A DNA stretch of 64,000 nt from Bacteroidetes bacterium GWF2_38_335 (GTDB lineage Bacteria; Bacteroidota; Bacteroidia; Bacteroidales; GWF2-38-335), in contig MEOH01000027.1 in the NCBI GenBank assembly GCA_001769535.1, forward strand, positions 282,553 to 346,552. Direction: 5' to 3'. The position numbers and the translations under genes were made by a program. Below are positions 3,801 to 56,647 of the stretch, one piece after another. Position 1 is the stretch's first letter. The number at the start of each line of letters is the position of its first letter. The notes beneath the pieces were generated by a model, which saw nothing but the letters and a program-made list of their open reading frames with translations, was not told where the DNA came from and ran no database searches.

Positions 3801-6442
3801 GGTGTGATGTCTTTAAAACAAACAAATGATATTTCGTCATCACCTGCAGATCCGCCAACACATGCAGCAATGTTTGAATTTACGCCCATAACTATCAGGT
3901 CGCCGGGAACTAAAACCGCAGCTACAGAAACAGCTGTTGTAACCTGACTATTGGGATTATTAGTGGCGGTATTTACATTATAAACAGTGTTGGTTCCGGT
4001 ACAATTATATTCATAAACCCTGAACCAGTATGTAGTTGAAGGAGAAAGACCTGTGACGGAAACGCTATTACCCGAATTGTTATAAACCACTTGTTCGCCG
4101 CTGCCACCGTAAACTGAATTGGCAGTGGGGTCGGTTCCGTTAGCGGGATTTGTGAAGGAATTTGAGGTGTTAATTTTTACAACTCTTTTGCTGCCGTTGC
4201 CGTTTGTCCAGTTAATAGCCATAGAATTGTCAGAAACTGAAGAAAAAGTAATCGACGAGGCCTGTGTTGTTGGAGCCACACAGGATATGGTTGCTTGTGA
4301 ATTGGGATTGCTTGCTGCAACTGAGGTTATGTACACGGTATTTGTTCCTGAGCAATTGTATTCATATACTCTGTACCAATATGTTGTAGCAGGGCTCAAT
4401 CCAGAGATTGAAACCGAACTTCCTGAATTATTATAAACAACTTGTTCGCCGCTGCCACCATATACTGAATTGGCAGTTGGATCGGTGCCATTTACCGGAC
4501 TGGTAAACGAATTGGAAGTGTTCATTTTAACGATTCTTTTATCGCCATCTCCAATAGTCCAGGATAAAATCATTGACACATCAGTAACTGATGAAAAAGA
4601 AATCGCACTTGCCTGCAATAAAGGAATTGCACAAGAACCACAAAGGAATTCAACATCATCAAGGTACCATGTGTTAAAAGTAGAATTAAAACGAAAATAC
4701 ACTTCAGAATATGCAGATAAGTCAACACCTCCAACATTGGTTAGGTTAACAGTAATATATGATTCAGTTGTACTAACAGTAAAGGAAGTACATGAAGTCC
4801 ATGCACCACCTGCCCCGATTTTATAATCAACAGTTGCAGTGCTTCCAGATCCACCGCTGCTGGCATCCTGTTGGAATTTCAATTGGGTTGGATAATCAAC
4901 AAATGGAGAGATAATGTATGTTCCTGTTCCAAGTGCTCTGCATTCATCATTAGGAGCGCAGTGTAGATTGTCAGCAGCTGTTCCGCTATTTGTCCAATCC
5001 GTAAATGACACAAAATCCTCGCTGTAACATGGTCCGGTAGAAACAGTAACAGTAGTGGTTGCAATACAACCAGAGAGCGTATAAGTAATAACAGAAGTTC
5101 CGACAGACACTCCCGTAACCACTCCTCCTGCGGAAATTGTTGCAACGCCTGTACTTCCACTAGACCATGTTCCTCCTCCGGGACTACCGGTTAAAGTTGT
5201 ATTTGCGCCAACATTAACAGTGGTTGTTCCACTAATAGTTGGAGTAGGATTTATAGTAATCGCAGCTGAGGCAACGGCGCCGGAGCTCCAGCAAGTTCCG
5301 TTGTAGGCTCTTGCGTAATATGTTCCTGAGGTAGTCACAGTATAGGCAGATGTTGTGGGACTTGCGGTGCTTGTGCCCGTAGCCGATGTTTGCCAGTAAA
5401 TGGCTGCATTGGGTGATGAGTATGTCAGTGTTGTGGATGTACAGGCAGGATTTGCTCCGGGAGTTATTGTTCCTGAAGGGTTGGCAGGCAAAGAATTTAC
5501 TGTTAATGTTGCAGCACTGGAAGTTGTGGTAGGATTTGATCCACAAACACAGGTAACAACTACATCATAATTTGCAGCATCGCCAACTGCTACCGAAGGA
5601 ATGGTATAAGTTGACGAAGTAGCCCCGGAAATATTCGTACCGCCCTTACGCCACTGATAATTCAATGCACCACTCGCACAGGTTGCTGTGACTGAAAATG
5701 TTACAGATTCGCCAACACATTTTGTGGAGCTTGTTGGTTGGGCAGTTATTGTGGGGGCTGTGCAGGAAGCTAAAATACCAGTTATTTTAAAATCATCAAT
5801 ACACCATCTTTCACTTGTTGAATTATTCAATAAGGTAATTCTAACTGTTAAACTAGCAACAGCAGGCAACCCTGAAATTGTAATTGTGCTATATCCATCT
5901 GTGGTTCGATTTCCACCTCCAACAGGTGCAAAATCTACAGGTGTTGAATTGCCATCATAAGCAGTTGAAGCATTTCCCGTACCAGTAGAATAAGCCCAGC
6001 ATGCATTGGAGAAACCTAAAACCCTTGCTGTACTGTAATATGTGGCACCTCCATCGGGACTAATTTCAACAGTTACGATATCTCCGGCATCTGCACCGTT
6101 TGTAGCTCCACCTATAGAAAATGAAGTCAATCGTAGAGTTAAATTAACTGAAGAGTATCCCGTTGTATTAATTGCATTTGAAGTAATACCTAATGTAGCA
6201 TTTGATTTTCCTAAAGAATAGGTGTTTAAAACAGCAAAAGGAGATGAGGCAGGTAAATCTCCTACCGCAGTATTTCCACTATAATATGATGCTGTCCCTG
6301 TTGTAACAGAAAAAGTTGTAAGGGTATTTTCAAAATCTTCAGAGGCAATTGTTACCTGTCCCCAACTAACCCCAATAAAAAAACCCACTCCCGCCAAAGT
6401 CAGCAGTAGTTTTTTCCCAGAGTTATTTAAATACCTTTTCAT
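848..6442 (-). CDS. Large secreted surface protein with Ig-like and fibronectin III domains and T9SS type A sorting domain
   Basis: An exported modular protein of about 1,864 residues. I start it at the ATG at 6442 because it is followed at once by a signal peptide (KRYLNNSGKKLLLTLAGVG, ending SWGQ); an upstream ATG at 6502 would add 20 residues before it. Order: a possible carbohydrate-binding or MAM-like region, Ig-like domains (about 220-480), two very similar fibronectin III units (about 602-830), a lamin-tail-like segment with conserved Cys (about 844-1090), a long array of short beta-strand repeats resembling a beta-solenoid (about 1100-1600), then the common LPIELISFNA linker and a C-terminal T9SS type A signal ending KKIFIP. 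It should cross the outer membrane through T9SS and be anchored or released. No catalytic motif is visible, so adhesion or a matrix role is only a guess. Confidence 0.85.
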   Translation of the reverse strand: MKRYLNNSGKKLLLTLAGVGFFIGVSWGQVTIASEDFENTLTTFSVTTGTASYYSGNTAVGDLPASSPFAVLNTYSLGKSNATLGITSNAINTTGYSSVNLTLRLTSFSIGGATNGADAGDIVTVEISPDGGATYYSTARVLGFSNACWAYSTGTGNASTAYDGNSTPVDFAPVGGGNRTTDGYSTITISGLPAVASLTVRITLLNNSTSERWCIDDFKITGILASCTAPTITAQPTSSTKCVGESVTFSVTATCASGALNYQWRKGGTNISGATSSTYTIPSVAVGDAANYDVVVTCVCGSNPTTTSSAATLTVNSLPANPSGTITPGANPACTSTTLTYSSPNAAIYWQTSATGTSTASPTTSAYTVTTSGTYYARAYNGTCWSSGAVASAAITINPTPTISGTTTVNVGANTTLTGSPGGGTWSSGSTGVATISAGGVVTGVSVGTSVITYTLSGCIATTTVTVSTGPCYSEDFVSFTDWTNSGTAADNLHCAPNDECRALGTGTYIISPFVDYPTQLKFQQDASSGGSGSTATVDYKIGAGGAWTSCTSFTVSTTESYITVNLTNVGGVDLSAYSEVYFRFNSTFNTWYLDDVEFLCGSCAIPLLQASAISFSSVTDVSMILSWTIGDGDKRIVKMNTSNSFTSPVNGTDPTANSVYGGSGEQVVYNNSGSSVSISGLSPATTYWYRVYEYNCSGTNTVYITSVAASNPNSQATISCVAPTTQASSITFSSVSDNSMAINWTNGNGSKRVVKINTSNSFTNPANGTDPTANSVYGGSGEQVVYNNSGNSVSVTGLSPSTTYWFRVYEYNCTGTNTVYNVNTATNNPNSQVTTAVSVAAVLVPGDLIVMGVNSNIAACVGGSAGDDEISFVCFKDITPNTFLDLTDEGWERCHTGQWGNSEGFLRIQRTTSTIPAGTVITIRLNQTGAALTGIYPDNNWTIITDIRSVIMNSNGDQLYFMQGGTWNDGLHTCNPTGFNSGTGTDDCEDATYTGGTYLFGFNTNDDWLAGVCDVVNDVSGNGRSQNSGMLVGMDCFTMTPNVAKDFLKYTGPTDPCSQIEWVGRVNDPSNWTNYTDCSGYYAGAPNYTTGQTISITEAGIDAAYNWYGHKSTEWFDCANWGTLRVPIWSTNVVIPNDTEVENNIVLIAGETAECKDFTISNASYSIKGENGATKVLNIYRHLVINAGTIDFDDGNNATADGTINVASTWTNNSTTNSFLRGNSTVNFTGTATHTITSSSGIENFHNISVASPGIVSPGVNDLLVSGTWTNYSSAGFTEGTGLVTFDGSALQTISTPGGETFYDLEIKNSANVSLGANVTVTNDLYLNTGNLVINGVSLTLQKSLSRNTGYFTGSSTSDLIINGTGNLATPLWFSAGGEFLDILNINRASSGIVTMGTNLTVSGQLAVVSGILSINDKHLTISGTTSGTGTVSGSALSELTIGGSGAMGTIYFTSGSDQVRNLTVNRASGTATLGTDLTVNNLLTLTNGIITTGIYKLIVSNSSATSVSGYNTNSYINGNLRRYIATNTATYGLPVGSLTRYTLAELVNGNLAGVTYLDAKFLETFGNTGSLNTAIAIDYGTPYSTICTEGIWQIDPDAGPSAGDYDIKLWFNDGGGASPFSGIVDGQFGPLKRNSSSTLASDWAGESTGSLNAPGTPGTTLAGGYAQRNNITSFSHHAIGISAFLLPIELISFNAVFEGGNVELTWSTSSEQNNDYFTIERSSDGFLFDELKRIAGAGTSFTRIDYSDTDYNPHTGTSYYRLKQTDFDGKFSYSEIVAVNAANENILNVYADNNTNTIHVVSNDNLQLIRMSICDVTGRTIYSNLLHGTTEINLDEISITTGIYFINISDSGSYLTKKIFIP

Positions 6443-47835: not shown

Positions 47836-49173
47836 ATGATTCAGCGTAACGTATTACAACAGTTAATAATCTGGAAAGATTCCGAAAATCGTAAACCCTT
47901 AGTGCTACGAGGAGCCAGACAAGTTGGTAAAACAACCTTGGTTAATGAGTTTTCCTCCGGATTTGAGGTTTTTCTTACTTTGAACCTTGAAAAAAACAGC
48001 GACAGAGAGTTGTTTGACCGTTATACGGAAATTGAATCTCTTTTGCCGGCCATTTATTTATATAACAAAAAAACAATTCAAAACAGGCCAACATTGCTGT
48101 TTATCGATGAAATACAGTATTCTGTAAAAGCAATTTCCATGTTGCGCTATTTTTACGAAGAAGCCCCACATATCCACGTTATTGCGGCAGGGTCATTATT
48201 AGAGGCTTTGCTTAATAAAGAAAAAATTTCCTTTCCTGTTGGTAGGGTCAGCTATTTGCCGGTTCGTCCGTGTAATTTTCTCGAATTTCTTGACGGGATA
48301 GGCGAAAGCTATGATAAAAATTTGATTATTAATATAAATGGAGATTCGGTTCATCAAAGATTAATGGATTATTTCAGAAAATATACTTTAATAGGCGGAA
48401 TGCCCGAGGTCATAACTGAATATGCGAAAATTAGAGACGTTTTGGCTTTGCAAAATGTTTACGATTCATTATTGGCTTCCTATATTGATGATGCTGAAAA
48501 GTATTCTGATACAGATTCCCAAATTCAAATTATCAGGCATATTCTTAAAGTCGGCTGGAAAATGGCGGCAGAATGTATTGTTTTTGAAAACTTCGGAGAA
48601 TCAAAATTCAGATCGCGGGAAGTTGGCAATGCTTTCCGGACTTTACAAAAAGCGTTTCTTCTGGAGCTTGTTTACCCTGTTTCGCAAACAAAATTGCCAT
48701 TGAATCAGAATTTTCGTAAAAAACCCAAACTATTTATGATAGATACCGGTTTGGTTAATTATTATTCAAAAATACAAACCGACGTTTTTTCTGCAAAAAA
48801 CATTCAGGATGTATGGAGAGGGAAAATCGCTGAACATATAGTTGGGCAGGAGCTGATTTGCCTGGAAAACTCCACACTGTCTGAAAGATATTTTTGGAGA
48901 AGGGATAAAGCCGGCTCAGAGGCTGAAGTTGATTTTGTTTATCCATTTAAAGGCAAAGCTATTCCGGTTGAAGTAAAAACAGGCCATAATTCAAAATTAA
49001 AATCATTGCACATGTTTATGGAAAATGCTCCTCATGACATAGCAGTACGAATCTGGGGGGAAAACTTTTCAGTTGATAAAGTAAAATCCCTGAATGGAAA
49101 GGAATTCAGATTAATTAATTTACCATTTTATTATGCTTGTGTTTTGGACAAAGTTTTGGATAATAATATTTAG
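47836..49173 (+). CDS. AAA ATPase with DUF4143 domain
   Basis: 445 residues. Walker A GARQVGKTT (26-34), Walker B TLLFIDEIQ (about 92-100), then HVIAAGSLLEALL, VGRVSYLPVRPCNFLEFL and GGMPEVI, all typical of AAA_14/DUF4143 ATPases. The C-terminal DUF4143 part has LFMIDTGLVNYYS and a nuclease-like EAEVDFVYPFKGKAIPVEVK motif (E-x-D, then EVK), resembling a PD-(D/E)XK core. These genes are very common in Bacteroidota and some archaea, and their biological role is unsettled; toxin-antitoxin, DNA-handling and mobile roles have been suggested. The 33-bp iterons upstream give a clear regulatory hook. It lies in an accessory stretch with dispersed repeats. Confidence 0.9.
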   Translation: MIQRNVLQQLIIWKDSENRKPLVLRGARQVGKTTLVNEFSSGFEVFLTLNLEKNSDRELFDRYTEIESLLPAIYLYNKKTIQNRPTLLFIDEIQYSVKAISMLRYFYEEAPHIHVIAAGSLLEALLNKEKISFPVGRVSYLPVRPCNFLEFLDGIGESYDKNLIININGDSVHQRLMDYFRKYTLIGGMPEVITEYAKIRDVLALQNVYDSLLASYIDDAEKYSDTDSQIQIIRHILKVGWKMAAECIVFENFGESKFRSREVGNAFRTLQKAFLLELVYPVSQTKLPLNQNFRKKPKLFMIDTGLVNYYSKIQTDVFSAKNIQDVWRGKIAEHIVGQELICLENSTLSERYFWRRDKAGSEAEVDFVYPFKGKAIPVEVKTGHNSKLKSLHMFMENAPHDIAVRIWGENFSVDKVKSLNGKEFRLINLPFYYACVLDKVLDNNI

Positions 49174-49182
49174 ACATCTCAC

Positions 49183-49494
49183 TGATAATCAATAATTAAA
49201 ACTATTATACTTCATTTATATTCCATATATTGCATTTGATAATCAGTACTTGTTTCCATTGAAAAAACAGTAAAAACGCTTTCGCAGATTGCTTCGGAAT
49301 ACGGAATCCACATCAACACCCTCCGCCGGTGGATTAAACCAATTAAAAACGATCTGAAACAAAATAACCGGAAACTTTTAGGTGGAGATGGTTTATGGTT
49401 TTTTAAACAACAATTTCCAGCAATGATTTTCCTATATGCTTTTACCCCCGGCTTAACTTTTTATCAATTTCTCTATCGTAATCCCATCTTCTGA
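49183..49494 (+). pseudogene. Altered copy B of the small helix-turn-helix element with its 5' flank
   Basis: Positions 49183-49380 are almost identical to 63477-63674, including about 75 bp of non-coding 5' flank with TGATAATCA at 49183 and 49237. The ATG of the intact copy is ATT here (49258). The reading TVKTLSQIASEYGIHINTLR is intact, but after RKLL the C-terminus is replaced by unrelated residues ending at 49494. Without a start and with a changed end it is probably not functional. The rest of 49174-49557 holds only the terminator. Confidence 0.7.
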
Positions 49495-49510
49495 AACAAT
49501 TATAATAAAA

Positions 49511-49550
49511 GCAAAAAGGATGTTTCAAATTGAACATCCTTTTTTATTGC
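49511..49550. terminator. Bidirectional terminator between converging genes
   Basis: AAAAAGGATGTTTCAA (49513-49528) pairs with TTGAACATCCTTTTT (one bulged T), with A and T runs on both sides. It can end transcription from the left and from the receptor operon on the right, whose last gene stops at 49558. Confidence 0.85.
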
Positions 49551-49557
49551 TTAAAAA

Positions 49558-52305
49558 TTACCTGTTCTTCACATCCACCGAAATTCCCGAATTAAACTGT
49601 GCCTTGGTAAGGCGGTATTTTAATGTCAACATAAGATACCGGCTTATCACGTTGGATCTTCGTTCCATCAGGTAGTTTAACTGACTTATCCGCTCCAACC
49701 CTTTATTTTTATCAAGGATGTCGTAACATTCTATGGATACCGATCCCCGGCGGTTTTTCAGGAAAAAGTATGTGGCTTCGGCTTTCAGCAAGGGAATGTC
49801 AATTTGCTCACCAAAACTGCGTGCATCGTAACGGGTCACGTCAAAAGTAACCGCAAAATGCCAGTTTGTAAAGGGCGTGTAGCTGACCTCGGTCCAGCCA
49901 TTGATGTTCAGATATTTTTTATTGAGCGATTCCATGATTGAATAACGGGCATCAGACAATATTGCTGTGCTTCCAAAAGAAACATCCAGCTTTTCGTTTT
50001 TCCGCTTGTAAAAACTTATGGCAACCGAATGGCTGTAATTTGTCAATTGGTTTTGGGCATCGTTGACCAGACTGATTCCCTGTGACCAGTTCTCATTCAG
50101 CGATAACTGCAGGTTTAGACCGATCTTTCTCAACGGGGTGGAAAAATCAATTCCGGCCCCTGCCCGGTAATCATCTTTTACATTTACAAGAGTTGTTTTT
50201 TGCGAAAGATCGGGAAGGATATTCTGTGACAGATTGATCTTATCCTGCGTGTAAGTGCCGTTGAGATTGGCAAAAACAGAGGTCTGCGAAAACTGGTCAA
50301 ACATCATCCAGTTTGCCTGCAGCACATGCATGGTTTCGGGTAAAAGATCCCTGTTCCCGTTGAAAATGTTCAGCGGATTGGCGTAGCTGCCCGTTGGCAA
50401 CAGCTGTGATGCCTGCGGGGTGTTTACCAATGATTCATAGTAAAGCGACAAACTTCGGCTCTGACGGTAATCATATCTCCATGATGCCGAGGGAAGGAAC
50501 TTCATGATGCTTTTTTCCTTCCTGTCTTCATCCGAAAAACCGTTGGAAAGTAGTCCGTTTTCCATTCCGGCCGTAAATGAAAGTTTTGACTTTTTTGTGT
50601 TGCGCTTTAATGATAATCCTGCGTTTACATCAGAATATCCTGTTTTGAAATGCGGACTTAATGAGTCAATGACCGTTTCTTCGCTTCCGGCCAGACCGTT
50701 TTTCCTGTCAAGATCTTCCTCATTGCGAGACATGGAAAGTGAAGGAACTAAATACAACAGTTTGGATATTTTTCTCGTTGCAGAAACCGAAGCGGTTAGC
50801 TGGTTTACGCTGTTCTGGTCATCAAGAAAGCGGTTATCTGAATAAACATTTTCAGGACTGTAAAAACTGGTGATATTGTTCCAGTCCGACGAAGAAAGTG
50901 TCCTTTGCATGTTACCGCCCACCCCTGCTTTAAACAGTTTCCAGTTGCCCACTCCGCTCCTCAGGTAGTTCGCATTTGCTTTTGCCTGCACAACCCGGCT
51001 GTTGTCGCGCGAGTATCCGGACAACCCGTTAACGAGATAATCATTGACGAATGAATGTGACAAACTTGACTGTGTATTGTCTCCGGTAGTTAAACGGGCA
51101 TTCCCGTCAAGATTGAATTGGGTGAGTGAGTCGATGCGGTTTTTCCATCCGAAGTTGAGGCGGTTTGCCCGGTCTTTTGAATCGGTTTCCGAATCGGAAT
51201 TCTGAATAAAAGACCCTGTTTGGGTAAAATTTGTTGATGAGGAGGTCTCCGACAGAAATTTATTTGCCCCGCTGCCCAGATATGAAATATTGAATCTGTT
51301 GTTTTCACGTGCCTCGTACATATAATTCAGTCCGGTTGCCCCCGAAGTCACCAGTCCGGTAACCGGCCTTCCGAAATCCACCGGCATTCCGGCATCCATT
51401 TCCGACGAAAGGGTAATTCCTCCCCCTGACATCATGCTTTGCAATCCGCCGTTAAAATCAATATAATCCTTGAAAGAAAACCCGTATTTGTTGATATTGT
51501 TGAGCATCCCCAGAGCAGCAAACTGGTACTTTTTGTTGAAACGGTAAAGCTTGGCTCCGGCCTGAAACTTATTATCCTTGGCATATCCGCCGGTAACATC
51601 ACCGAAATAGGCATTTTTTCGTCCATCCTTCAGAATGATGTTGAGGGTTTTCTGATACGAACCGTCATCAATACCGGTAAGTTCTGTTTCATCCGATTTT
51701 TTATCGAAAACCTGCACTTTGGAAATGGCATCGGCCGGAAGGTTTTTTGTTGCCACCGTGGGGTCGGAGCTGAAAAATTCCTTTCCGTCAACAAGTACTT
51801 TCTGCACATCCTCGCCCTGTGCCTTGATATTTCCCGAACGGTCAACCTCAACGCCGGGAAGCTTTTTCAGCAGATCTTCGGCAACGGCATCGGGATTGGT
51901 TTTGAATGATTCGGCGTTGTACTCAACGGTGTCCTGTTTGATGAGGATGGGAATGCGCTCGGCAACTACATTAACGGTTCCGACAGTCTGCACCGCCTGT
52001 TTAAGTACAATAATTCCAATATTCCCGTTGGATACGGGCACCGAAATGCTTTTAAAATACGACTCATATCCCAGAAATGATGCCTGCAGCAGATATTTTC
52101 CGCTGCTCACATTTTTTATTTCAAACGCTCCCTGTGAATCCGAAATCCCATAGTACAAAAGAGTTGAATCGGCAGGGTTGAGCAGCACCGCTGTGGCATA
52201 GGTGAGCGGACTGCCTTTGTCGTCGTAGATTAAACCTTTGACGGCGCTTTGTTGTGCAAAAAGTGTCGTTGTAAGGACGCTGAAAATAATGATAAGGTTT
52301 TTCAT
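49558..52305 (-). CDS. TonB-dependent-receptor-like outer-membrane beta-barrel protein
   Basis: 915 residues. Signal peptide (MKNLIIIFSVLTTTLFAQ), a carboxypeptidase-regulatory-like domain (about 20-105, VKGLIYDDKGSPLTYATAVL), a plug-like domain (about 120-225, LLKKLPGVEVDRSGNIKAQG and VLVDGKEFFSSD), then a long barrel. It belongs to the outer-membrane beta-barrel family related to SusC/TonB receptors but without a clear TonB box. It follows a GLPGLI gene by 13 bp, a frequent pairing. The substrate is unknown. The divergent sensor kinase and response regulator with shared operator repeats suggest that this operon is their target. Confidence 0.88.
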   Translation of the reverse strand: MKNLIIIFSVLTTTLFAQQSAVKGLIYDDKGSPLTYATAVLLNPADSTLLYYGISDSQGAFEIKNVSSGKYLLQASFLGYESYFKSISVPVSNGNIGIIVLKQAVQTVGTVNVVAERIPILIKQDTVEYNAESFKTNPDAVAEDLLKKLPGVEVDRSGNIKAQGEDVQKVLVDGKEFFSSDPTVATKNLPADAISKVQVFDKKSDETELTGIDDGSYQKTLNIILKDGRKNAYFGDVTGGYAKDNKFQAGAKLYRFNKKYQFAALGMLNNINKYGFSFKDYIDFNGGLQSMMSGGGITLSSEMDAGMPVDFGRPVTGLVTSGATGLNYMYEARENNRFNISYLGSGANKFLSETSSSTNFTQTGSFIQNSDSETDSKDRANRLNFGWKNRIDSLTQFNLDGNARLTTGDNTQSSLSHSFVNDYLVNGLSGYSRDNSRVVQAKANANYLRSGVGNWKLFKAGVGGNMQRTLSSSDWNNITSFYSPENVYSDNRFLDDQNSVNQLTASVSATRKISKLLYLVPSLSMSRNEEDLDRKNGLAGSEETVIDSLSPHFKTGYSDVNAGLSLKRNTKKSKLSFTAGMENGLLSNGFSDEDRKEKSIMKFLPSASWRYDYRQSRSLSLYYESLVNTPQASQLLPTGSYANPLNIFNGNRDLLPETMHVLQANWMMFDQFSQTSVFANLNGTYTQDKINLSQNILPDLSQKTTLVNVKDDYRAGAGIDFSTPLRKIGLNLQLSLNENWSQGISLVNDAQNQLTNYSHSVAISFYKRKNEKLDVSFGSTAILSDARYSIMESLNKKYLNINGWTEVSYTPFTNWHFAVTFDVTRYDARSFGEQIDIPLLKAEATYFFLKNRRGSVSIECYDILDKNKGLERISQLNYLMERRSNVISRYLMLTLKYRLTKAQFNSGISVDVKNR

Positions 52306-52318
52306 GAAAACAGAATTT

Positions 52319-53095
52319 TTACTGCGTTACGGTTTTTATCACTACCCTTACGTTTCCACCTTCAGATGAACCGCCCATTTCTTCGGTTTTTTTCATGACC
52401 ATTTCTTCAAACTCCTTAGTGGTCATTTTTTTTCCTTTAGTCGGTTTCACGATTTTATCTTTTTCAATTTCTTTGAGGTCAACAGATTTAGCAGTGATGG
52501 TGCGGTCACCGTTATTGGTGCTGATTGCCAGAATCATTCCGGGCAGTCCGCCATAATCTTCCGGTCCGGCTGAAACAGGAATTCCGGGGCAAAACCATGC
52601 TGTTACCAAATCTTCCTTTTCTTTGCTGGTAGCTTCAAGACAAGGATACCCGCCGATCATTTTTTGTCCGCCGGTCATTTTCCATTCCCTTTTGGTAAAT
52701 TCATCCTCAATGAGAAAAGTTCGATCCATAAAGTCAACCTGCTGAACCACTTTGTTTCCAGTAAGATTTCTGTAGCAGATGTTTTGCGATCCGCCGCCCA
52801 TACTAATAACCACCATTCCACCTTCACCTGATTCGCTAATTTCTTCCTCTTTTGATGCAGATGGCTGATAAATACTTGTGCTTTCATTGAAATAAAGTGT
52901 CATTTCAGATTTTGTTTCAGTAGGCATCATTCCCCTGATTTCCTCAGGCAAACTGTCGAGATTGATTTCCATCTTAAAGACATCTTCATAAGTGATGGTG
53001 CCCTGATTGGCTTTTTGAGCGTTAAGCTGCATGCTGCATATAAAGCCCAGAAGTGCAAAAATAAGTACTGATTGCTTTTTTGAAATTTTTTCCAT
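52319..53095 (-). CDS. GLPGLI family protein
   Basis: 258 residues. Signal peptide (MEKISKKQSVLIFALLGFICS, ending LNAQ), then GTITYEDVF, the family's usual opening, and the naming motif in the form YGGLPGMIL (about 188). Acidic and Lys-rich ends include EEEISESGEGG and a MTTKEFEEMVMKKTEEMG helix. GLPGLI proteins are secreted Bacteroidota proteins of unknown function, often encoded beside TonB-like receptors. Here it is the first gene of the operon and starts about 25 bp after the minus-strand -7 box. The function is unknown; a role in sensing or binding a ligand or metal at the envelope is only a guess. Confidence 0.9.
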   Translation of the reverse strand: MEKISKKQSVLIFALLGFICSMQLNAQKANQGTITYEDVFKMEINLDSLPEEIRGMMPTETKSEMTLYFNESTSIYQPSASKEEEISESGEGGMVVISMGGGSQNICYRNLTGNKVVQQVDFMDRTFLIEDEFTKREWKMTGGQKMIGGYPCLEATSKEKEDLVTAWFCPGIPVSAGPEDYGGLPGMILAISTNNGDRTITAKSVDLKEIEKDKIVKPTKGKKMTTKEFEEMVMKKTEEMGGSSEGGNVRVVIKTVTQ

Positions 53096-53119
53096 GTTTA
53101 TTGATGTTTTTGTTCAGGA

Positions 53120-53127
53120 CAAAATTA
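53120..53127 (-). promoter_or_regulatory. -7 box of the GLPGLI/receptor operon, lacking a -33 box
   Basis: TAATTTTG on the minus strand, about 25 bp before the GLPGLI ATG. At the expected -33 position, 20 bp upstream, there is no TTG; the first AAGGTTAAT repeat (53147) occupies it instead. This suggests activator dependence. Confidence 0.55.
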
Positions 53128-53146
53128 GCCCTGGTAAGCAAGGGGT

Positions 53147-53186
53147 AAGGTTAATGACAGGCCAATTAAGGTTAATTAAGGTTAAT
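53147..53186. promoter_or_regulatory. Operator candidate: three AAGGTTAAT direct repeats
   Basis: AAGGTTAAT occurs at 53147-53155, 53168-53176 and 53178-53186, with starts 21 and 10 bp apart, so all lie on the same helical face. They sit between two divergent -7 boxes (53120-53127 and 53199-53206), over both missing -33 positions. OmpR/PhoB-family regulators bind direct repeats about 10-11 bp apart, and an OmpR-family gene is in the right-hand operon. Binding by that regulator is inferred. Confidence 0.7.
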
Positions 53187-53198
53187 GAACTGAAAAGG

Positions 53199-53206
53199 TA
53201 TCTTTG
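53199..53206 (+). promoter_or_regulatory. -7 box of the sensor kinase/regulator operon, lacking a -33 box
   Basis: TATCTTTG, the canonical Bacteroidetes -7 box, 22 bp before ATG 53229. A second match (TATTTTTG at 53214-53221) is too near the ATG. No TTTG lies 19-21 bp upstream; repeat 3 covers that position. Confidence 0.55.
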
Positions 53207-53228
53207 TTTTATTTATTTTTGTTCTCAA

Positions 53229-54698
53229 ATGCTGACGATGAACAAAATACGAATAACCGGAATATTAATGATTTTCAGTCTGCTCCTGCTGACAGTTTTT
53301 CTGACCAGCTGGTTGATAAACCAATACAGCGGACAAAGAAAACTTTTGGTTGATGATTTAAAACTTGGGCTTCAGAATTCAGAGCAACAGGTGATGGATT
53401 CACTTTTGGCCAAACAGTTTATTGATCCCTTAAAAGCTGAAGCGGGATGGGTTTCAATTGCAGTTAACTCCACAGAAAGTCCTGAAAAAATCAATCACCA
53501 AATTTCATCTTATAGGGTATGTTCAGACAGCGCCATAACCAATATGTATGTTGATACCATCAAAATGGTGATCAGGGATTCTTCGGCCCGAATGAAAATT
53601 AATATCCAAAGAGATGAAAAGGTGTTGTTTCAGGGAATGCGGATGTTTGTAACTGAATTTGGGCATATCGGAGCCGATTCACTCTGCTCCGATTCATTAA
53701 TTGCAGTTGGTCTGGACGCCGACACCCTGCTTCTGCAAAATATTTTTGGTGATTTTATGGAATCACGTGATTACAATTTTTCGGTGCTTTGGCTTAAAAC
53801 AAATGATACCAGCGGGATTGACGAAGAAAACAAGATCGTTTTGAAGTGCCATTATTTCAATAATATTTCCGCAACAGAAATAAGCGGATTCAGAATATTT
53901 CTGTTACGTAAGATCAGTACACAAATAATTTTTGCTTTGGTGTTGTTGATTGTTACCGCTCTGGCATTCAGAATGGCCTACCGGAGCATGAGGAGTCAGC
54001 GCCGGCTCCTTGCCATGAAAAATGATTTTATCAGCAACATCTCACATGAGTTGAAAACACCGGTATCAACGGTAAAAGTTGCCCTGGAAGCGCTGAAAGA
54101 TTTCGACATGAAAAACAATCCTGAGGTGGTCAACGAATACCTGAGCATGTCATTACAGGAAATGAACCGCCTCGACGACCTTGTGGCAAAGATACTCAAC
54201 GCCACGGCACTGGAGGAGGGCAGGAATATTGTAAGACTTGAAAAGACTGATTTGAACCGGTTGGTAACCGAAACGCTGGATTCAATACACTGGCAACTTG
54301 AAAAATCGGGTGCCGTGGTTGAAACCTTTCTTGAAGAAAACCTTCCAGAAATTATGGCTGATCCGCTGCATCTCAGGGGTGTTCTGGTGAATCTGACAGA
54401 TAATGCCGTAAAATATTCGGGTGAAAAACCCCTGATAAGGATTTCGGTTAAAAGAGAAAAATCAGGTATCGTTTTGTCGGTAGCAGATAACGGACCCGGA
54501 ATTCCCGATGAATACCTGAAAAAAATCTTCGAGAAGTTTTTCAGGGTTCCACAGGGCAACACCCACAATGTTAAAGGTCATGGTCTGGGACTTTATTACG
54601 CGCAGGTAGTTGCAAAACAACACAATGCCACGCTCACCGCGCGCAACCTGAAAGAGGGCGGATGCGAGTTATTACTATATTTTCCTGATAAGCCATGA
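53229..54698 (+). CDS. Two-transmembrane sensor histidine kinase
   Basis: About 489 residues from ATG 53229 (53238 is also possible); a longer reading back to 53031 overlaps the divergent gene and its promoter and is rejected. TM1 (about 8-28, LMIFSLLLLTVFLTSWLI), a periplasmic sensor region of about 200 residues, TM2 (about 233-253), then HisKA with NISHELKTPVSTVKVAL (H273), the N box NLTDNAVKYSGE (about 387), DNGPGIP (about 419) and GHGLGLYY (about 450). This is a classic EnvZ/PhoR-type kinase, close to the RprX group of Bacteroidota. The next gene overlaps it by 4 bp and is its regulator. The periplasmic sensor shows no domain I can name; the divergent receptor/GLPGLI operon is the likely target. 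Confidence 0.93.
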   Translation: MLTMNKIRITGILMIFSLLLLTVFLTSWLINQYSGQRKLLVDDLKLGLQNSEQQVMDSLLAKQFIDPLKAEAGWVSIAVNSTESPEKINHQISSYRVCSDSAITNMYVDTIKMVIRDSSARMKINIQRDEKVLFQGMRMFVTEFGHIGADSLCSDSLIAVGLDADTLLLQNIFGDFMESRDYNFSVLWLKTNDTSGIDEENKIVLKCHYFNNISATEISGFRIFLLRKISTQIIFALVLLIVTALAFRMAYRSMRSQRRLLAMKNDFISNISHELKTPVSTVKVALEALKDFDMKNNPEVVNEYLSMSLQEMNRLDDLVAKILNATALEEGRNIVRLEKTDLNRLVTETLDSIHWQLEKSGAVVETFLEENLPEIMADPLHLRGVLVNLTDNAVKYSGEKPLIRISVKREKSGIVLSVADNGPGIPDEYLKKIFEKFFRVPQGNTHNVKGHGLGLYYAQVVAKQHNATLTARNLKEGGCELLLYFPDKP

Positions 54699-55387
54699 AA
54701 ACCAGAATATTATATGTTGAAGACGAACCCTTTCTCGGGAAAATAGTAAGGGAGACACTGGAAAGTCAGGGCTTTGAAGTGTATCTGGTGGCTGATGGTG
54801 CAAAAGTTATCTCCATGGTTGGCACCACAAAACCCGATATTTGTGTGCTGGATGTGATGCTGCCCAATGTTAATGGTTTTACGCTGGGAAAACAAATTAA
54901 AGGTGCCTATCCACATTTACCCGTCATTTTTCTTACGGCAAAAGTTGAGACCGAAGATATCATCACCGGTTTTAATTCGGGAGGCACCGATTACATCAGA
55001 AAACCATTCAGTGTTAAGGAACTGATTGTGCGCATCAACAACCAGTTAAAGCTGGCCAAACACACCAGTCATGGAGAAACAAAAATATCAGGTGATATTG
55101 CCCTTGGAAAAGTTGTTTTTAAACCGGATATAATGGAACTTCATGTGCCCGGCGAGGTGATCAAGCTGTCTTCAAGAGAATCAGAAATCCTCACCATGTT
55201 GATTTCAGGAATCAACGAATGTGTTGAGCGAAAAACCATTTTAAAGACCATCTGGGGCGACGATTCCTTTTTCAATTCGCGCAACCTTGATGTTTATATA
55301 CGCAAGATAAGAGGATATCTGTCGGCTGAACCCGGAATAGAAATTCTCACTCTTAAAGGCAAGGGTTACAGGGTGGTTTGTAAATAA
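54695..55387 (+). CDS. OmpR/PhoB-family response regulator
   Basis: 230 residues, overlapping the kinase by 4 bp (ATGA). Receiver domain with E9/D10, phospho-acceptor D53 (ICVLDVMLP), T81 and K103 (YIRKPF), then a winged-helix trans_reg_C domain (about 135-228) with LSSRESEILTMLI, LKTIWGDDSFFNSRNLDVY and the closing LKGKGYRVV. It resembles RprY-type regulators. OmpR-type proteins bind head-to-tail repeats, and three such repeats lie in front of this operon (53147-53186), so autoregulation and control of the divergent operon are both likely. That control is inferred. Confidence 0.94.
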   Translation: MKTRILYVEDEPFLGKIVRETLESQGFEVYLVADGAKVISMVGTTKPDICVLDVMLPNVNGFTLGKQIKGAYPHLPVIFLTAKVETEDIITGFNSGGTDYIRKPFSVKELIVRINNQLKLAKHTSHGETKISGDIALGKVVFKPDIMELHVPGEVIKLSSRESEILTMLISGINECVERKTILKTIWGDDSFFNSRNLDVYIRKIRGYLSAEPGIEILTLKGKGYRVVCK

Positions 55388-55438
55388 ACTCTGAGGACCA
55401 AAGCCTCACAAACCACTAAAAGCAGCTGATTTTTTAGT

Positions 55439-55756
55439 TTAAATGAAATTATTAATTCTCAAATGTTTATTAATGTTTTTTATTTTCTCTTTAGGAATCT
55501 CCAATTCCGTTGCTATTTTATTCCATTGGCTTACTGCAAGGATAACCTCTTGTAAAATATCATTTGCTTTTTTGATTCCAAATGATTTGGCAAACTCAAG
55601 CAGGTCGTCTTTTGTGAAGTTATCGTACTTGCCATTAATTGATGATTGATGAACGTTGGTCCAATTTCCACCGGGACTATACGAAAAACAAATGTCATAG
55701 GCTGGAGATATTTTCCATCGTCCATCCTGAGTCATTAGGAAAGAAAAAATATTTAA
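55439..55756 (-). pseudogene. hipA remnant (C-terminal part of HipA kinase toxin)
   Basis: The open reading (55439-55735) ends as a HipA C-terminal domain does: GRWKISPAYDICFSYSPGG, HQSSINGK and the helices to the end. The homologous reading continues upstream of the ATG as LNIFSFLM until a TAG at 55757-55759. HipA toxins have about 310-440 residues and this is only the last ~107, without the ATP-binding and catalytic part or a HipB partner. It is thus a dead fragment. An attC-like structure and a higBA cassette begin about 110 bp further on. Confidence 0.8.
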
Positions 55757-55865
55757 CTATTAAAATATTAATAGAAAATATTCTAAAATTATAATAACTA
55801 TAAATAATACGAAAGTTATTTTTAAATTTAATTAGGGTTGATTATTAATTTGGCTTGGACGTTCC

Positions 55866-55976
55866 GCGTGTTGGTTCTGTTTGGGCTTAAAAACCGCTTA
55901 ACCATTCGCCTGCAGTAAAGCTAATTAATTGTAGCGAGCTTTCCAAACCGACGGGCGCCCAAAAAAATTAACACGC
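55866..55976. repeat. attC-like paired inverted repeat beside the higBA cassette
   Basis: Two 7-bp blocks on the left (GCGTGTT 55866-55872, TTTGGGC 55880-55886) are matched in reverse complement on the right (GCCCAAA 55957-55963, AACACGC 55970-55976), with 7- and 6-bp gaps. This two-block stem with one extra base is the layout of integron attC sites. GTTAGGC (fits GTTRRRY) follows at 55985. The outer blocks do not fit the R-box consensus and no integrase is in the window, so attC identity is unproven. Confidence 0.4.
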
Positions 55977-55994
55977 TGTTAGCTGTTAGGCGTT

Positions 55995-56300
55995 TTATCC
56001 AATCATTAGGCTTATTCGTTTTCCAAGTCCGAATTCGAATATTCTGTATAGAGTCGAAAGTTGAATATCACATTTACCATTTTCAAGTCTTGAAATATAG
56101 CTTTTCTTTGTTCCGACTTTTTCAGCAAGCTGCTCCTGTGTCATTTTTGCTTCTTTTCTTGCTTCTTTCAGCATTTCACTGATAACAAAATACTGTGCTT
56201 TTTCTTCAAAAACATCTCGTTTTTCAGTTCCGATTTTTCCGTATTTAATGTCTAACAACTCATCAAAGGTTGTAGCATTTTTTATTTTTTCTTTTTTCAT
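55995..56300 (-). CDS. higA: HigA-like antitoxin (XRE helix-turn-helix)
   Basis: 101 residues. The helix-turn-helix (about 43-95) reads MTQEQLAEKVGTKKSYISRL and ENGKCDIQLSTLYRIFE. It overlaps the preceding toxin gene by 4 bp, in the toxin-first order that defines HigBA systems. As an antitoxin it should bind and neutralise the HigB RNase and repress the operon by binding a palindrome; a perfect one lies in the promoter at 56658-56671. The stop is directly followed by the inverted-repeat end of the cassette. Confidence 0.88.
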   Translation of the reverse strand: MKKEKIKNATTFDELLDIKYGKIGTEKRDVFEEKAQYFVISEMLKEARKEAKMTQEQLAEKVGTKKSYISRLENGKCDIQLSTLYRIFEFGLGKRISLMIG

Positions 56301-56647
56301 GACTTTTTTTCTTTTGAGTTAAAATATTCGTTCTTCAATTTCAGCACTAATTCGATTTCTTTCTTAGGTGTCTTCTGGGACTTTTTATGAAATGCATTAA
56401 ACAATACAACTAAATTGCCCTTGTCAAAACAACAAAATATTCTATAAATATTGCTTTCAAACTCTATTCTGATTTCATAAAGTCCGTCAGTCCCTTTCAA
56501 ATGCTCAAGAAATTTTTTCGGTACATTCTGAACATTTCGAATAATTCTGAAAACGTATTCGATTTTTTCCTGCACTTTTTCATTTTGCTTCACATAGAAG
56601 TCAACGAAATAGTGTCCGTGAAAAATGATTATTCTATTTGCATCCAT
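56297..56647 (-). CDS. higB: HigB/RelE-type toxin
   Basis: 116 residues with the RelE/HigB fold pattern: YFVDFYVKQNEKVQEKIEYV helix, LKGTDGLYEIRIEFESNIYR, then IFCCFDKGNLVVLFNAFHKK and the Lys-rich tail TPKKEIELVLKLKNEY. Toxins of this group cut mRNA on the ribosome in most studied cases. It is the first gene of the pair and overlaps higA by 4 bp. The -7 box (TAACTTTG) ends only 4 bp before the ATG, so the transcript is probably leaderless or nearly so. Confidence 0.88.
   Translation of the reverse strand: MDANRIIIFHGHYFVDFYVKQNEKVQEKIEYVFRIIRNVQNVPKKFLEHLKGTDGLYEIRIEFESNIYRIFCCFDKGNLVVLFNAFHKKSQKTPKKEIELVLKLKNEYFNSKEKKS

Follow-up and report, generated by a model that had tools for sequence, protein, structure and literature searches.

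Three conserved direct repeats between divergent GLPGLI/beta-barrel and sensor kinase/regulator operons, a candidate operator of the adjacent OmpR-type regulator

Regulators of the OmpR/PhoB type usually recognize operators in which direct repeats follow each other at intervals of roughly one helical turn, and the promoters of the Bacteroidetes follow a sigma consensus with a -7 box TAnnTTTG and a -33 box TTTG. Riemerella anatipestifer, which provides one of the closest described systems, belongs to the same phylum as the host of the DNA analysed here. In Escherichia coli, sites with two to five direct repeats, some of them with three, are described for ArcA, the spacing being one or two turns (PMC3798270). 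The PhoP regulator (PhoPR) of R. anatipestifer recognizes a TTTAACA motif (reverse complement TGTTAAA) that is said to resemble that of ArcA, and it binds upstream of its own operon, its targets including GLPGLI and outer-membrane beta-barrel genes, as stated in the available part of the report (PMC9603813). A divergent GLPGLI/barrel operator is absent from the same part of that account (PMC9603813). For RprY of Bacteroides and Porphyromonas, the words motif, consensus and binding site are absent from one paper on RprY, which offers no site to compare (PMC3646045). No description of the operator or module presented below was found in the open-licence literature, including by the letters of the operator.

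The locus lies in a 64-kb stretch of DNA (the window), in which two operons diverge from a short intergenic region (Table 1). The original prediction placed a GLPGLI gene on the left and a sensor kinase with an OmpR-family regulator on the right, and TIGR01200 and Pfam matches bear this out. The first left-hand product belongs to the GLPGLI family with 154.1 bits against TIGR01200 (cut-off 50), while its Pfam family, PF09697, is labelled there as a protein of unknown function. An AlphaFold model of this protein (mean pLDDT 80) has PNGase F-II as its nearest solved fold (TM 0.53). VioE, ependymin-related proteins and LolA match it less well, and we draw no function from these likenesses. The second product carries PF14905 (OMP_b-brl_3, 7.4e-20) and PF13620 (an N-terminal carboxypeptidase-regulatory-like domain, 4.7e-09), and no plug or TonB-receptor Pfam family was detected in it at E<=0.001, a single scan and therefore weak evidence. 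The combination of a plug with a TonB-dependent barrel that defines a TonB-dependent receptor is not seen in this outer-membrane protein, and because no TonB plug was detected, its earlier description as a receptor in an uptake module finds no support. To our knowledge, neither GLPGLI proteins nor OMP_b-brl_3 barrels have a settled role. On the right, the kinase gene has an additional in-frame ATG at 53229, and the model of the kinase sensor has pLDDT <50 across most of residues 75-157. The regulator consists of a receiver domain and a C-terminal winged-helix domain, as is proper to the OmpR/PhoB type, and matches 19 distinct solved sequences at E<=1e-20, including MtrA, RegX3, PhoP and KdpE. 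Its best NCBIfam match is the RprY equivalog NF051850, yet at 209.9 bits it stays far under the cut-off of 370, and the Bacteroidetes PhoB equivalog NF053854 reaches 154.2 bits against a cut-off of 270; identification of the regulator as RprY or PhoB was rejected because both scores fall below these equivalog cut-offs.

Table 1. Coordinates of the genes, repeats and promoter boxes of the divergent locus, as positions in the window
Feature	Position	Strand	Remarks
Outer-membrane beta-barrel protein, 915 aa	49558..52305	-	ORF; second gene of left operon
GLPGLI family protein, 258 aa	52319..53095	-	First gene of left operon; PF09697
GLPGLI promoter -7 box TAATTTTG	53120..53127	-	Best box 21 bp from repeat 1
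Repeat 1 AAGGTTAAT	53147..53155	+	Core GGTTAA 53149-53154; at -33 position of GLPGLI promoter
Degenerate fourth half-site GGCCAA	53160..53165	+	Weak claim
Repeat 2 AAGGTTAAT	53168..53176	+	Core 53170-53175
Repeat 3 AAGGTTAAT	53178..53186	+	Core 53180-53185; 10 bp past repeat 2
TATCTTTG, plus -7 box of the original prediction	53199..53206	+	6/6 match; probably not the conserved box
TATTTTTG, most likely -7 box of the kinase/regulator promoter	53214..53221	+	6/6; 28 bp past repeat 3
Sensor histidine kinase, 486 aa	53238..54698	+	HisKA 2.3e-14, HATPase_c 7.6e-24
OmpR-type response regulator, 230 aa	54695..55387	+	Response_reg 1.1e-26, Trans_reg_C 1.5e-16

Between the two operons, the nonamer AAGGTTAAT occurs in the only three copies that the window holds, all on the plus strand and exact, with the starts 21 and 10 bp apart that had been claimed for them. 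Direct repeats about one helical turn apart (10 and 21 bp) are thus present in the window, as they are in its relatives. When the three GGTTAA cores are searched for as a spaced triple, they have a single zero-mismatch occurrence in the 5.27-Mb genome. At 2-3 mismatches the whole genome adds 6 sites, while the reversed control gives 15, so that nothing points to a wider regulon here; that candidate was rejected, a second site being absent from the 5.27 Mb. A reading as structured RNA was likewise rejected, with no Rfam match at gathering scores in 49300-56000.

The GTTAATTA core of the array is presumably comparable to the ArcA box. Common to both systems are also an OmpR/PhoB-type regulator and direct repeats on one helical face, as far as the available part of the ArcA study describes them (PMC3798270). 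The spacing, however, is different, ArcA repeats standing 11 (or 22) bp apart from centre to centre in that text (PMC3798270) and those of the window 10 and 21 bp, and ArcA has many genomic sites, whereas here one or two strict sites are found per genome, nearly all at one module. With R. anatipestifer PhoP the locus shares a two-component regulator, a TGTTAAA-type motif and, as putative targets, GLPGLI and barrel genes, but the PhoP system as given in the available part of its report has 583 DAP-seq peaks, other most-conserved letters and a different kinase and regulator (PMC9603813).

Relatives of the locus were found with the kinase, in a one-genome-per-species collection, from which the best 80 of 128 loci were taken, and in a second collection of 393 genomes from the order. 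Some loci may be present in both: L021 and L045 have identical regulators and are probably the same organism. Two loci that carry the site, L048 and L059, come from the cultured relatives Niastella sp. and Ohtaekwangia koreensis. A kinase row was taken as GLPGLI-linked when a divergent GLPGLI gene lay within 2 kb (45 loci listed, 47 rows), and its site was scored by GGTTAA at offsets 0, 21 and 31, with a maximum of 18. The original prediction had named relatives with the same gene order as the place to look for the repeats, and they are strongly kept there: among the matches listed, 43 of the 47 GLPGLI-linked rows score at least 16/18, or 44 when L081 is included, a locus whose kinase frame is broken by masked bases (first score 10, real site 17/18). 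As controls, 85 other kinase rows reach at most 14 and 9400 dinucleotide shuffles at most 15. The rows scoring at least 13, without L081, form a set of 46, of which only L056 (15), L032 (14) and L051 (13) stay below 16; in the last of these an additional gene lies between the GLPGLI gene and the kinase gene, and each has its own site, a complete array (18/18) before the GLPGLI gene and, before the kinase gene, a pair resembling repeats 2-3 that is followed by a box at 28 bp.

Grouped at 80% kinase identity, the 46 rows give 38 clusters, and the median identity between pairs of kinases is 40%. In repeats 2 and 3 each GTTAA column is conserved in 37 or 38 of these clusters (the GTTAA of the repeat 2 core in 38/38) and those of repeat 1 in 36-38, the whole GGTTAA core of repeat 1 giving 29-38 of 38, and most spacer columns between the repeats carry little information. 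An array that is near base-perfect over such deeply separated lineages would provide the regulator with an exact and short (40-bp) DNA target, and it is this depth of conservation, together with the tying of two protein families of unsettled role to one kinase/regulator switch, that makes the locus notable. The nonamer by itself is not rare, as 1.29 copies are expected per window and 12 of 100 shuffles contained three or more, and repeats 2 and 3 stand nearly head-to-tail, as could be expected if the repeats were due to chance or to neutral tandem duplication (AT-rich slippage) and had no role. With positions fixed at this kinase divergence, most spacer columns unconserved and further copies at genes that have moved, such an origin is refuted by the conservation data, and we assign it a vanishingly small probability.

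In the gap between repeats 1 and 2, GGCCAA begins 11 bp past the core of repeat 1 and 10 bp ahead of the core of repeat 2, and so fills it as a possible fourth half-site. Its last two positions are AA in 35 of the 46 rows, the remaining positions being unconserved, and a strong fourth half-site was rejected, the mean number of matches to GGTTAA at offset 11 being 2.35 as against 2.54 at offset 10 and 2.41 at offset 15. In L045 and L021, the nearest relative, the stretch from the start of the GLPGLI gene to the operator contains direct repeats of ~100 bp, two copies being almost identical and a third one partial.

On both sides the array is accompanied by a -7 box of the TAnnTTTG type at a conserved distance, and at neither promoter is there a TTG/TTTG -33 box 19-21 bp upstream. 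For the minus-strand box TAATTTTG this had been predicted correctly, repeat 1 occupying the position in question. Among the relatives, the best CAAAnnTA box (the -7 box read backwards) is located 21 bp before repeat 1 in 39 of the 46 rows, against a mean of 1.0 and a maximum of 5 in shuffled flanks; in the 7 rows that depart from this distance, the box lies at 20 bp in L021 and L045, and L038 and L054 have an equally scored box at 21. The kinase side is even more regular, with the best TAnnTTTG box 27-29 bp past the last repeat in 45/45 site-bearing relatives, each of them a 5/6 or 6/6 match (45 of the 46 rows, against a mean of 2.2 and a maximum of 7 in shuffled flanks). The 46th row is the window itself, in which the scan took the first of two perfect plus boxes, the one at 53199, 13 bp past the last repeat. 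It was this box, TATCTTTG, that had been claimed as the promoter of the kinase gene, and the relatives speak against the claim: a box of at least 5/6 at 12-14 bp past the last repeat is found in 1 of 45. Because their best box is at 27-29 bp throughout, TATTTTTG, judging by its position relative to the repeats, most likely serves the kinase/regulator promoter as its -7 box; the 53199 box was rejected as the main promoter, though both boxes may serve this genome. The resulting geometry, with one -7 box 21 bp ahead of the array, repeats at 0/21/31 and a second -7 box 27-29 bp past them, can serve to find and annotate the regulon in further genomes of this group.

With the kinase-side box at 53214, 28 bp past repeats 2-3, the two promoters are asymmetric, repeat 1 lying at the -33 position of the GLPGLI promoter and repeats 2-3 upstream of the -33 position of the kinase promoter. 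Replacement of the -33 box by a repeat, which had been claimed for both promoters, consequently stands for the GLPGLI side and fails for the kinase side, where the repeats are situated further upstream. On this promoter anatomy activation is likelier than repression, because repeat 1 occupies the GLPGLI -33 position and the kinase promoter has no -33 TTG. It is conceivable that the same regulator acts as a repressor of one operon or of both, for instance by blocking access of polymerase to the GLPGLI -33 position that repeat 1 overlaps, with phosphorylation relieving or causing the repression, and multi-repeat ArcA sites are known from both repressed and activated operons in the available part of the ArcA study (PMC3798270). 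However, the repeats stand in place of a -33 element and not beside one (a TTG 18-22 bp upstream of the kinase -7 box is present in just 2 of the 46 rows), repeats 2-3 end clear of that box, and a repressed promoter would be expected to retain a good -33 element; we regard repression as unlikely.

The array is also found beyond these relatives. A strict pattern, GTTAA-N16-GTTAA-NNAAGGTTAA, was searched for in 248 genomes of the order of G643, probably the Chitinophagales. It was found 57 times, in 40 of the genomes, and its reversed control once. When the neighbourhoods were inspected (41 newly fetched regions pooled with L162-L165 and L171), 56 of the 57 sites proved to be at this module. The sole site off the module, in L242 (G892) at 5145 (-), stands before a different kinase, and this genome has no regulator match at E<=1e-50. 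Upstream of a kinase gene are 36 of the sites, 35 of them with a GLPGLI gene on the opposite side (33 by script, plus L163 and L165, where the GLPGLI frame overlaps the site), and the kinase-side box is at 27-30 bp in 34 of these 36. On the GLPGLI side, 7 of the 36 depart from the 21-bp distance. In six of these (L204, L209, L210, L211, L222, L223) the box lies 10-11 bp from repeat 1, a shift of about one helical turn, and the barrel gene is apart from the GLPGLI gene.

The other 21 strict sites lie upstream of barrel genes that are separated from the operon. Their left box is at 21 bp in 20 cases; on the right there is no module gene, and the best right-hand box is at 27-29 bp in just 3, none of them a 6/6 match. 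The same association is seen when separated barrel genes are chosen by protein match (at least 340 bits, leaving out weaker or cut-off barrel genes such as those of L048, L049 and L282), as 27/27 have an upstream triple of at least 16/18, and five of the 27 (L058, L069, L209, L210, L211) are loci that the site pattern had not brought in there. Barrel gene and regulator are on different contigs of the draft assemblies of G935, G904, G928 and G994 and ~54-237 kb apart in G985, G1011, G953 and G965, so that regulation at these genes would be in trans. A different arrangement is observed in L170 (G582), where the barrel, GLPGLI and kinase genes are co-directional and the operator is upstream of the barrel gene.

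The occurrence of the strict site follows that of the regulator. In the same 248 genomes, the regulator match reaches 211 bits in 50, of which 39 have the strict site, as does 1 of the 198 others (Fisher p 2.8e-34), a line that was set after viewing the list and at which there is no wide gap, the next match having 210.3 bits and 44% identity; with the match defined by E<=1e-50, the counts are 39 of 76 and 1 of 172 (p 4.4e-23). In the 11 genomes that reach 211 bits without a strict site (14 regions, pooled with L172), 9 have a 16-17/18 variant, one has 14, and in one the contig ends in the kinase gene. A quick tree of 77 regulators, with a midpoint root and 4 of the Aquimarina-type rows (L085-L124) kept, unites the 46 site-bearing rows within one clade of 52 (SH-aLRT 100); its remaining six rows are L081, three loci where no adjacent GLPGLI gene was detected, and two on contigs beginning in the kinase gene. 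The recognition helix of the clade, (F/Y)FNSR(N/T)LDVY, is near-invariant, and the wing residues T219 and K221 are present in 52/52, while the 25 regulators outside the clade have mostly YF(N/T)xRSMDVY and N and H at the wing positions. The shared helix may reflect descent and not contact with these particular bases.

The half-site itself is less specific than the array. The loose pattern GTTAA-N16-GTTAA-N5-GTTAA was run over 395 genomes of the phylum, where it has 39 sites (in 31 genomes) and is unspecific, because the reversed control gives 31 hits; just 14 of the 39 belong to this module, and many of the rest are upstream of other kinases. Direct GTTAA repeats, often TGTTAAAAAATGTTAA, were observed before other kinases in most of L149-L160 and in L003, L004, L005 and L042-L044, and in L033, L034, L037 and L040 a pair similar to repeats 2-3 stands 27-29 bp before the box, the regulators of these four being outside the clade. 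Like the present one, these sites have direct repeats spaced by about one turn in front of a kinase gene, but they differ in their half-sites and in that no divergent GLPGLI gene was found alongside, and those of their regulators that were placed in the tree fall outside the clade. Because similar repeats occur at other kinases and regulators, the GTTAA half-site belongs to a wider operator family, and the sites at other kinases are perhaps, as a guess, a Pho-type operator of the phylum; the present site is set apart by its complete array, in which AAGG precedes the last repeat, and by the two promoters and the genes that go with it. From the repeats at other kinases it might be argued that a different regulator, an orphan of the OmpR type or a global factor, binds the array and that the kinase/regulator pair is merely a target. 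Yet the strict sites track this regulator across genomes and are nearly all at module genes, and a single site in the present genome is ill-suited to a global regulator, which makes a different binder quite improbable.

The conserved repeats, their spacing, the regulator clade and the operators at moved genes all speak for the original prediction of one OmpR-type regulator for both operons, and on these comparisons of sequence we consider it highly probable that the array is the operator of the adjacent regulator, which would activate both. In the mechanism that we infer, the neighbouring regulator would be the binder, phosphorylation the driver and activation the effect. Phosphorylated by the adjacent kinase, the regulator would bind the direct repeats as dimers on one helical face, one dimer on repeats 2 and 3, 10 bp apart, and a second on repeat 1, perhaps together with the weak half-site 11 bp downstream. 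The bound regulator would substitute for the missing -33 elements and recruit RNA polymerase outward in both directions, leftward for the transcription of the GLPGLI and outer-membrane-barrel genes and rightward for that of the kinase and regulator genes, which would amount to positive autoregulation.

We further propose, as a tentative extension that may well prove wrong, that the array could switch a widespread envelope-sensing regulon in two steps. With little phosphorylation, the strong pair of repeats 2-3 would be filled and the kinase and regulator alone raised, and at high phosphorylation occupancy would reach repeat 1 and the GLPGLI/barrel promoter would fire. Such a graded switch is suggested because three repeats are found at GLPGLI and barrel promoters and the pair alone at the kinase promoter of L051. 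For the barrel half, all 27 separated barrel genes examined keep three repeats, though in the 21 found by the strict pattern the right side has no module gene; for the kinase half, it is the single locus L051 in which the pair alone is kept. If the two-step view is true, the GLPGLI and barrel proteins would be the conserved output or a co-sensor of the system, which would give the GLPGLI family a testable role.

Several further features flank the module in the window. Just past the barrel gene, at 49513-49544, a stem of 12-13 pairs is terminator-like on both strands and possibly serves as a two-way terminator, and an AAA_14/DUF4143 ATPase gene adjoins the barrel gene at 47836-49173 (+). On the other side, 55439-55735 (-) encodes a 98-aa HipA_C fragment (30.1 bits against the Pfam cut-off of 30.5), apparently a remnant of hipA. 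Downstream of the regulator, at 55995-56647 (-), the genes for a Gp49-like (HigB-type) protein and a helix-turn-helix partner overlap by four bases and are likely to form a toxin-antitoxin pair.
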